Source of the DNA: an uncultured Haliea sp.
GTDB lineage: Bacteria > Pseudomonadota > Gammaproteobacteria > Pseudomonadales > Halieaceae
Length of the DNA: 64,000 nt
Direction of reading: 5' to 3'
NCBI GenBank assembly: GCA_947258585.1
Contig: CAMYIZ010000067.1
Coordinates: 1 to 64,000 of the forward strand
Shown here: piece by piece, positions 15,877-18,497 of the stretch
Layout of the letters: every line of letters begins with the position of its first letter
Position numbering within the stretch: the stretch's first letter is position 1
Program-made: the position numbers and the translations under genes
The notes under the pieces: generated by a model
The model's database searches: none
Seen by the model: the letters and a program-made list of their open reading frames with translations, nothing else
Told to the model about the DNA's origin: nothing

Positions 15877-16731
15877 TCAGGCAGCGATAGCAGTGCGCAA
15901 CTTTTTCATGGCATTCTGCTCCAGCTGACGGATACGCTCTGCCGAAACCTCGTACTTTTCCGCCAACTCGTGCAGCGTGGCCTTCTCCTCCGCCAGCCAG
16001 CGCCGGGCGAGGATATCGCGGCTGCGCTCATCCAGATCCGCCAGCGCGACATACAGCTGCTCTTCGCTGTTTTCCTGCCAGTCGTCGGACTCAACCGCCA
16101 GGGCCGGATCACTGCGCTGGTCTTCCAGGTAGTACTGGGGTGCCTGCCAGGCATCGTCGTCGTCCTGGTCCAGGGGCGAGTCGAAAGCGACATCGCGACT
16201 GCTCAGCCGGCCTTCCATGCGCTGCACCTCGGCAATATCGACGCCCAGGTCATTGGCCACCGCCTGCGCCTCTTCCGCACTCAGCCAGGCGAGGCTTTTC
16301 TTGGCGCTGCGCAGGTTGAAGAACAGCTTGCGCTGGGCCTTGGTGGTGGCGACCTTGACGATGCGCCAGTTGCGCAGGATAAATTCGTGCATCTCGGCCT
16401 TGATCCAGTGCACTGCAAACGACACCAGGCGCACACCCTTCTCGGGATTGAAGCGCTTCACCGCCTTCATCAGGCCGACATTGCCCTCCTGGATGAGATC
16501 CGCTTCCGCCAGCCCATAGCCGGAGTAGCTGCGGGCTATGTGGACCACGAAGCGCAGGTGGGACATGACCAGTTGGCGGGCCGCCTCGACATTGTCGTTG
16601 TAGTACAGGTCCTCGGCCAGCTCCTTCTCCCGCTCCGGGGTCAGCAGCGGGATGCTGCTCACCGCCTGCACATAGGCCGCGAGGTTGGCACCCGGGACCA
16701 TCTGGTCAACCGGCAACAGGGTTTTGCTCAT
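15877..16731 (-). CDS. rpoH: RNA polymerase heat-shock sigma factor sigma-32
   Basis: A sigma factor that directs RNA polymerase to heat-shock promoters. The ATG at 16731, with GGAG eight bases upstream, gives 284 residues, the same as E. coli RpoH. The sigma-32-specific RpoH box QRKLFFNLR lies near residues 131-139, region 2 shows [21 protein letters not shown] and [17 protein letters not shown], and region 4 ends with [27 protein letters not shown]. It follows ftsYEX as in most gammaproteobacteria. The leader holds a CIRCE operator, so HrcA repression is likely in addition to whatever post-translational control exists. Confidence 0.98.
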
Positions 16732-16762
16732 GCGAGGTTCTCCATGTTCAATGAGGCCGATT

Positions 16763-16789
16763 CTAGCACTCATTCCCTTAGAGTGCTAA
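16763..16789 (-). promoter_or_regulatory. CIRCE operator (HrcA binding site) upstream of rpoH
   Basis: In the rpoH direction the sequence reads TTAGCACTC-N9-GAGTGCTAG. The CIRCE consensus is TTAGCACTC-N9-GAGTGCTAA, so 17 of 18 arm bases and the exact spacer length match. The element ends 31 bp before the rpoH ATG, the normal place for CIRCE between promoter and coding region. The hrcA gene is not in this window, so the repressor's presence is inferred. Confidence 0.88.
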
Positions 16790-16863
16790 TCGCCGGAAAG
16801 TTCCCTGTAAAGCCGGGAAATTTCAGAAAATTTTGTTAAATAACAATAGCTTGACAGCCGCGC

Positions 16864-17838
16864 TCAGCGAGGGGCGATGCGCCCCAGGTGGCGGGAAACG
16901 GCCAGCCAGGCACCCGCGAGGCCGAGCAGGCCACCCAGCACCACGAGATTGAGGCTGCCCATGATACCCAGGCCGCCCAGTTCGAAACTGCTCTGGTAGA
17001 GCTCCGCCAGGCGCGCCACCGGCTCGCCCAGGAACCACAGCGCCGCGGCGACCAGCAGGGCCGCGAAAAACCCTCCCCCAACCCCGTACCAGAGCCCGGT
17101 ATAGAGGAAGGGCCGGCGGACAAAGCCGTTGCTGCCACCCACCAGCTTGACCACCACTATTTCCTCGCGCCGGCTCTCAATGGCGAGGCGTATGGTATTG
17201 CCAAGGATCAGCACCACTCCGGCCACCAGCACTCCGCCCAGAGCCAGCACCATGCGCCGACTCAGTTCCATCAGGGTATTGAGCCGTTCCAGCCAGGCCA
17301 TGTCCAGTACGGCTTCCGCAACCCGCGGGTCCGCCGACAGTTCCCGGTGCAAAGCCGCCACCGGACCGGCTTCGGGAGCGGGCGTCACCAGCAGCAGGTC
17401 GGGCAGCGGGTTGTTGTCCAGGCTGTCGAGAACGTCCGCAAATCCGGAAAGCAGGCTGAATTCCTGCAGTGCCTCTTCCCGGGAAACAAATACCACCGCC
17501 GCTATATCCGGCCGCTCCTGCAGCTCCCGGTGCAACTCACGGGCCTCGTCGGCGCTGGCAGTCGCCGCCAGGAATAGCGATAACTGGGCGGGACTGTCCC
17601 ACTTGTCGCTGAGCTTGCGGGCATTGTCCAGGGCGACATCCAGAGCCGCGGGCAAGGCCAGGGCTATGCCGATCACCAGCCAGGTGAGGAGGCTGGACAC
17701 AGGATTGTCCAGTACCCGTGCCAGACTCTCCGCAGCGGACAGACGATGGTGGGTCAGCCAGCCGTTGAAGCGGTGGCGCAGCCGCGCTCGGCTGGTACTG
17801 GCCCCCTCCCGCCGGGACTTGTGGTCAAGCGCACTCAT
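16864..17838 (-). CDS. ftsX: Cell division ABC transporter permease subunit FtsX
   Basis: The membrane partner of FtsE. FtsEX relays ATP hydrolysis to activation of peptidoglycan hydrolases at the septum. The 324 residues show a cytosolic basic N-terminus, a first membrane segment (LLTWLVIGIALALPAALDVAL, about 53-73), a periplasmic domain (about 75-195) and three C-terminal membrane segments beginning near 200 (VLALGGVLVAGVVLILGNTI). The block RLAIESRREEIVVVKLVGGSNGFVRRPF is the family coupling region. Its start overlaps the ftsE stop by 4 bases. Confidence 0.96.
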   Translation of the reverse strand: MSALDHKSRREGASTSRARLRHRFNGWLTHHRLSAAESLARVLDNPVSSLLTWLVIGIALALPAALDVALDNARKLSDKWDSPAQLSLFLAATASADEARELHRELQERPDIAAVVFVSREEALQEFSLLSGFADVLDSLDNNPLPDLLLVTPAPEAGPVAALHRELSADPRVAEAVLDMAWLERLNTLMELSRRMVLALGGVLVAGVVLILGNTIRLAIESRREEIVVVKLVGGSNGFVRRPFLYTGLWYGVGGGFFAALLVAAALWFLGEPVARLAELYQSSFELGGLGIMGSLNLVVLGGLLGLAGAWLAVSRHLGRIAPR

Positions 17839-18497
17839 GCGCGGTTACTCACCAGGCGCCCATCGCGCAGGGTCAGGATACGGTGATGCAGGCGGGAAAT
17901 CAGGGCCAGGTCGTGACTGGCGATCAACACGGTTACGCCCACCTGGTTGAAGGCCTCAAACAGCTGCATGATTTCCGCCGACAGGGCCGGGTCAAGGTTG
18001 CCGGTGGGCTCGTCGGCCAGCAGGATGCGGGGCCGCGCCACCACAGCCCGGGCAATGCCCACCCGCTGCTGCTCGCCGCCCGAGAGTGTGATCGGCAGGG
18101 CGCGTTCCCGGGCCAGCAACCCCACCTTGTCCAGGGCCGCCCGCACCCGGCGTCCCACCTCTCGCTGATCATAGCCGGCAATAACCAGTGGCAGGGCCAC
18201 ATTGTGGTAGACCGAGCGATCAAACAGGAGCTGGTGGTTCTGGAATACGACGCCGATATTGCGGCGGTGGGCGGGAATACCCCGGTTGCCAATCCGGGCG
18301 AGGTTCTGGCCGTCGACAATGACCTGACCGCGGCTGGGGCGCTCAATCAGCATGATCAGGCGCAGCAGGGTGCTCTTGCCTGCGCCGGAGTGCCCGGTGA
18401 GGAATACCAGCTCGTTCTGGCTGATCTCAACGCTGACTTCACTCAGGGCTTCGTGGCCCTCCGCGTAGCGTTTGCTGACACGGTCGAAAGTGATCAT
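17835..18497 (-). CDS. ftsE: Cell division ATP-binding protein FtsE
   Basis: The ABC ATPase of the FtsEX divisome complex. The 220 residues contain Walker [14 protein letters not shown] (about 34-46), Q-loop VVFQNHQLL, signature [14 protein letters not shown] near 136-149 and Walker [13 protein letters not shown] near 157-168. It is coupled by 4-base overlaps both to ftsY upstream and ftsX downstream. Confidence 0.97.

Follow-up and report, generated by a model that had tools for sequence, protein, structure and literature searches.

In Bacillus subtilis, GroEL is thought to keep the repressor HrcA active, and in other bacteria HrcA is released when GroEL is occupied. In E. coli, sigma-32 is controlled by translation and turnover, and the rpoH mRNA is a thermosensor. 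Promoters of the sigma-E type follow the consensus GGAACTT-N15/16-TCTRA, and extended -10 elements resemble TGnTATAAT. The comparative study of Rodionov et al. (2004; PMC545781), in the parts of it available to us, treats HrcA/CIRCE and sigma-32 as two separate heat-shock mechanisms and gives groESL as the constant HrcA target in deltaproteobacteria. The same parts predict, by genome comparison, a CIRCE (TTAGCACTC-[N9]-GAGTGCTAA) at -51 of rpoH in Geobacter sulfurreducens, the only genome with an rpoH site in Table 8 of that paper. In the available portion of PMC5493296, rpoH is listed among the known RpoE-dependent promoters.

The window, by which we mean the whole stretch of 64,000 nucleotides that was analyzed, carries an rpoH gene with a CIRCE-like palindrome in its leader. 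The relevant features are as follows.

15877..16731, minus strand: rpoH, encoding sigma-32, 284 amino acids from the ATG at 16731 (TIGR02392, 396 bits)
16760..16768, minus strand: predicted extended -10 element TGCTAGAAT, formed by the right CIRCE arm plus three bases beyond it
16763..16789, minus strand: CIRCE operator (predicted HrcA binding site), TTAGCACTC-N9-GAGTGCTAG, kept before rpoH in relatives
16778..16782, minus strand: predicted -10 of a sigma-E-type promoter, TCTAA, 15 bases from the -35
16798..16804, minus strand: predicted -35 of the sigma-E-type promoter, GGAACTT, a sequence match; GAAC is common at rpoH sites
16864..17838, minus strand: ftsX, upstream of rpoH (TIGR00439, 332.5 bits)
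17835..18497, minus strand: ftsE (TIGR02673, 285.4 bits)

The assignment of rpoH is well above the TIGR02392 cut-off of 323.1. The longest open reading frame starts at 16773, within the operator, and we took the ATG at 16731 as the start because relatives start there. The best named RpoH match, among the top 80 of at least 594, was that of Haliea sp. E1-2-M8 (95%), and we therefore regard the window as Haliea-like. It shares the placement of ftsE-ftsX upstream of rpoH with E. coli K-12.

On the rpoH strand (minus), window positions 16789..16763 read TTAGCACTC-TAAGGGAAT-GAGTGCTAG, one arm base off the CIRCE consensus TTAGCACTC-N9-GAGTGCTAA. The initial annotation had counted 17 of 18 matching arm positions around an exact 9-base spacer and had placed the site, in the leader of a heat-shock gene, 31 bp 5' of the rpoH ATG (16731..16729); re-reading of the strand bore out both statements. 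The palindrome is the sole match at up to three mismatches within the 64,000-nt window. Chance as its origin, already called negligible, was ruled out, as a match at this stringency occurred in 0 of 100 dinucleotide-shuffled windows. Window positions 1-64000 gave no Rfam match at gathering score, nor was a tRNA gene found there. We consider it very probable, on sequence grounds, that the palindrome serves as an HrcA operator superimposed on the rpoH promoter region, from which HrcA would block both of the promoters described below and so act above sigma-32.

The initial annotation had suggested that hrcA and further CIRCE sites be sought in the genome. The repressor gene was found on another contig (G000:C56:11382-12044; PF01628, 208 bits, E 3e-61, against a cut-off of 22.2), followed by grpE. 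A search of the assembly, which is 96% complete, for CIRCE with up to three mismatches returned three sites: the one before rpoH (one mismatch), one before groES (two) and a weak one (three). The last of these (C70; L004) was set aside, as neither RpoH nor GroES adjoins it. Of the further sites to be sought, the one at groES was recovered, whereas none was found before grpE, or before hrcA, at up to three mismatches in this 96% complete assembly. Since groESL, the usual target, also carries a CIRCE, rpoH is predicted to be an added HrcA target and not a substitute for groESL. A sigma-32-like sequence, CTTGAAA...CCCAAT, precedes grpE in the same genome, and a second is found some 9 bp past the groES CIRCE (L003, minus strand), both noted without a chance control; given the position of the latter just downstream of the operator, groESL may be under HrcA and sigma-32 alike.

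The rpoH operator is predicted to be merged with two promoter elements, one of sigma-E type and one with an extended -10, a feature that the initial annotation had not noted. The putative sigma-E promoter, GGAACTT-N15-TCTAA, spans 16804-16778 and agrees with the sigma-E consensus, its -10 straddling the end of the left CIRCE arm, which supplies two bases, and the start of the spacer, which supplies three. The second element, TGCTAGAAT, matches a sigma-70 extended -10, and a scan for sigma-70-type promoters returned TTAGCA-N18-TAGAAT with TG at a score of 9/12. The predicted transcription starts lie at about 16771 and 16753. In all, 7 of the 18 arm bases double as promoter motif (TC on the left; TG and TAG on the right), so selection on the promoter alone could account for part of their conservation.

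We compared 99 distinct rpoH-CIRCE sites with 80 distinct groES-CIRCE sites, leaving out sites too near a locus end and collapsing leaders or sites with the same sequence in the compared stretch to one; the adjoining genes were identified by tblastn with the RpoH of the window and the GroES of its own genome. A T at +3 past the right arm was present at 98/99 rpoH sites and at 11/80 groES sites, GAAC 13-16 bases 5' of the site at 80/99 and 0/80, and an A at spacer base 3 at 83/99 and 6/80, respectively. TTGA 26-28 bases 5' of the site showed the opposite distribution (57/80 at groES, 1/99 at rpoH). CCA in the right arm occurred at none of the 99 rpoH sites and at 13 of the 80 groES sites, whereas the matching change in the left arm was seen at 11/99 and 18/80. 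These differences indicate one operator set into two different promoters.

The genome of the window encodes RpoE (322 bits), with a GGAACTT element some 45 bp upstream of the rpoE open reading frame. Among 32 leaders of the class sample described below, with RpoE scored as present at E ≤ 1e-45, GAAC at offset 15 or 16 was found in 20 of 27 RpoE-positive genomes and in 0 of 5 RpoE-negative ones (Fisher p 0.004; this value, like those for the site comparison and the class counts, overstates independence, the genomes being related). The GAAC element is therefore associated with RpoE among relatives, although 7 of the 27 RpoE-positive loci had none at these offsets. The T at +3 was present in all five RpoE-negative genomes (G166, G199, G233, G250 and G277), of which G199 is 88% and G233 73% complete. 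Since GAAC tracks RpoE and the T is kept without it, the two promoters appear separable, and the pattern is what one would expect if RpoE used the GAAC element and a different holoenzyme used the extended -10. G166, in which no RpoE match at E 1e-45 was seen, has two rpoH copies (C325 and C289), with a CIRCE listed only at C325.

The CIRCE-less rpoH leaders, from named Pseudomonas, Marinobacter, Gilvimarinus and others, have no CIRCE at up to two mismatches within 250 bp. A scaffold of GAAC with TGnTAnnnT 34-36 nt after it was present in 35 of 42 distinct CIRCE-bearing leaders (13/8400 shuffles) and in 19 of 58 distinct CIRCE-less ones (15/11600 shuffles), the latter drawn from the top 80 of at least 594 named matches, and was not detected in the other 39 of the 58. 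A regular expression for a sigma-E-like element matched 20 of 64 CIRCE-less leaders (14/3200 shuffles) and found none in 44; the same kind of expression recovered TGAACTT-N16-TCTGA before E. coli K-12 rpoH. In the rpoH leader of Gilvimarinus gilvus (L126), a decayed CIRCE with four mismatches sits on an intact GGAACTT and TGCTAGACT scaffold.

These data bear on a first alternative, in which the T at +3 and its neighbors belong to an extended HrcA operator and rpoH is driven only by the sigma-E promoter and perhaps by another that we did not see. The score of just 9/12 for the sigma-70-type match speaks for it. However, the T occurs at only 11/80 groES-CIRCE sites, where the same repressor presumably binds, and the AAT has no mirror image in the left flank. 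The TGnTAnnnT scaffold, moreover, is also found in CIRCE-less leaders (19/58, against 15/11600 shuffles), and the five RpoE-negative genomes retain the T. We regard this reading as unlikely.

The operator is well conserved among relatives. All 25 sampled genomes of the family, that of the window included, have a CIRCE with up to two mismatches before rpoH, and all 25 have hrcA. The initial annotation had named absence of hrcA from the genome and lack of the palindrome in related leaders as outcomes contrary to its reading; both were looked for and neither was found. In a first sample of 38 genomes, again including that of the window, 29 had hrcA and all 29 had the rpoH CIRCE, while among the nine genomes without hrcA it was present only in G026 (75% complete). 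Beyond the family, the genomes of the order with the site in this sample were G026, G027, G028, G032 and G036. Among 115 genomes sampled from the order, a set that overlaps the 38 above and for nine of which the loci had already been read, the rpoH CIRCE was present in 31/36 genomes with hrcA and in 4/79 without. The five genomes with hrcA but no site were G046, G052, G085, G090 and G127; the four with the site but no hrcA were G026 (75% complete), G040 (96%), G109 (95%) and G113 (79%). G040 and G113 belong to one genus, and their rpoH sites (L191 and L192) have one and no mismatches, respectively; no hrcA and no further CIRCE at up to two mismatches was found in either. Either hrcA is absent from these assemblies or the site survives there as promoter.

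A perfect CIRCE in G052 (L159, G052:C1:4232743-4232769) lies about 55 bp before an AAA+ ATPase open reading frame (PF00004), with neither rpoH nor groES adjoining; groES of this genome has its own CIRCE. The ATPase gene is a possible extra HrcA target.

Of at least 594 named rpoH matches, the best 80 comprise 16 with the CIRCE and 64 without it, Pseudomonas being frequent among the latter. All 13 loci labelled Haliea, Sediminihaliea, Parahaliea, Halioglobus, Luminiphilus or Halieaceae among these 80 carry it, the others being L121 (Ketobacter), L131 and L135.

We further examined a class sample of 151 genomes, one per family label, in which hrcA was found in 108 and RpoH (E ≤ 1e-70) in 138. 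The exact composite, YTRGCACTC-N9-GAGTGCTA-N3-T, occurred at 110 sites in 83 of these genomes, and its reversed control pattern at none in the 151. On the same strand and 62-227 bp before an RpoH match, 76 sites in 76 genomes were found. Among the class genomes having rpoH, the exact composite preceded it in 71 of 99 with hrcA and in 5 of 39 without. Four of the 28 hrcA-bearing genomes that lack the exact form (G240, G260, G265 and G275) have it with mismatches, and the five genomes with the composite but no hrcA are G140 (62% complete), G172 (81%), G228 (99%), G233 (73%) and G238 (85%). CIRCE sites were listed for 32 of the 115 CIRCE-bearing class genomes, those just before hrcA by coordinates being omitted; 29 of the 32 (all but G160, G226 and G234) have a CIRCE before rpoH, and in 28 of these 29 the T at +3 is present. 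The rpoH CIRCE is thus conserved, and associated with hrcA, in both the order and the class samples. The wiring of HrcA onto rpoH proposed in the initial annotation agrees with the presence of hrcA, with its 25/25 conservation in the family and with this association, but it is not peculiar to the genome of the window.

It could also be that what is mainly kept is the dual promoter, sigma-E plus extended -10, and that the likeness to CIRCE is a relic, with HrcA control weak or absent today. Promoter letters do lie in the right arm and spacer, the scaffold is found in 19/58 distinct CIRCE-less leaders, the site persists where no hrcA was detected, in four genomes of the order and five of the class, and the site in the window has an arm mismatch. 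Against this, the sigma-E -10 has no need of most of the left arm (TTAGCAC), which is nevertheless kept, the site tracks hrcA (31/36 versus 4/79 in the order, 71/99 versus 5/39 in the class), and in the family of the window both are present in 25/25 genomes. We hold this explanation to be quite improbable. That the palindrome works at the RNA level, folding into a hairpin that stabilizes the message or senses temperature, and not as a DNA operator is scarcely credible: although an inverted repeat could adopt such a fold and the E. coli rpoH mRNA is known as a thermosensor, the predicted starts (~16771 and ~16753) lie within or past the palindrome, which would therefore not be fully transcribed, no Rfam match was found in the window and the site is linked to hrcA.

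If this reading of the palindrome as an HrcA operator over the rpoH promoters holds, HrcA bound to it would cover the sigma-E -10 and the whole overlapping extended -10 promoter of sigma-70 type, both hexamers included, and would silence rpoH under either holoenzyme. Unfolded cytoplasmic protein would occupy GroEL, leading to release of HrcA, and rpoH and groESL would come on together. The freed rpoH would be transcribed by the sigma-70 holoenzyme and, under envelope stress, by the sigma-E holoenzyme as well. Sigma-32 would then drive groESL and grpE-dnaK, which are preceded by sigma-32-like promoters in the same genome. HrcA would thus stand above sigma-32, in addition to acting directly on groESL. 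The composite would join two sigma inputs to one chaperone-dependent repressor, and in 71 of 99 hrcA-bearing class genomes, each from another family, the prediction is of a series arrangement in which HrcA stands above sigma-32.

As the scaffold is common to leaders with and without CIRCE, the operator was either lost from it or built on it. Loss in E. coli and Pseudomonas is the favored direction, inferred from the wide occurrence of CIRCE alongside hrcA. On balance, we lean towards the composite under HrcA being the ancestral control of sigma-32 in Gammaproteobacteria, with hrcA-less E. coli, Pseudomonas and others as derived lineages that lost HrcA, partly kept the scaffold and adopted other controls; the extended -10 of hrcA-less lineages would then be a remnant of the right arm. 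This suggests that the HrcA-over-rpoH arrangement is an older mode of heat-shock control. It is a testable proposal that the control of sigma-32 by translation and turnover in E. coli replaced an older transcriptional loop.

The class showing the composite includes E. coli. No CIRCE palindrome was seen by eye in the 250 bp leader of E. coli K-12, and E. coli was not among the control genomes giving an HrcA match. Permina and Gelfand reportedly covered beta-, gamma- and epsilon-proteobacteria, and gammaproteobacterial cases may exist there or in RegPrecise. Outside PMC545781, no rpoH CIRCE was found in the literature searched, in the parts available (including PMC9866376, PMC5493296, PMC1978210 and PMC3135505), nor was the composite architecture or its breadth. 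The idea of a CIRCE before rpoH has thus been known since 2004; the composite and its breadth are new as far as those sources extend. G. sulfurreducens is a Deltaproteobacterium, and the available parts of PMC545781 do not mention a promoter overlap for its rpoH CIRCE. With the classic HrcA/CIRCE systems of groESL and hrcA-grpE-dnaKJ, our genome shares the same 9-9-9 palindrome, an hrcA gene and a groES site. It differs from them in having no site at up to three mismatches before hrcA or grpE, and in that rpoH is here the predicted target, with the operator merged into a sigma-E-type promoter and an extended -10.
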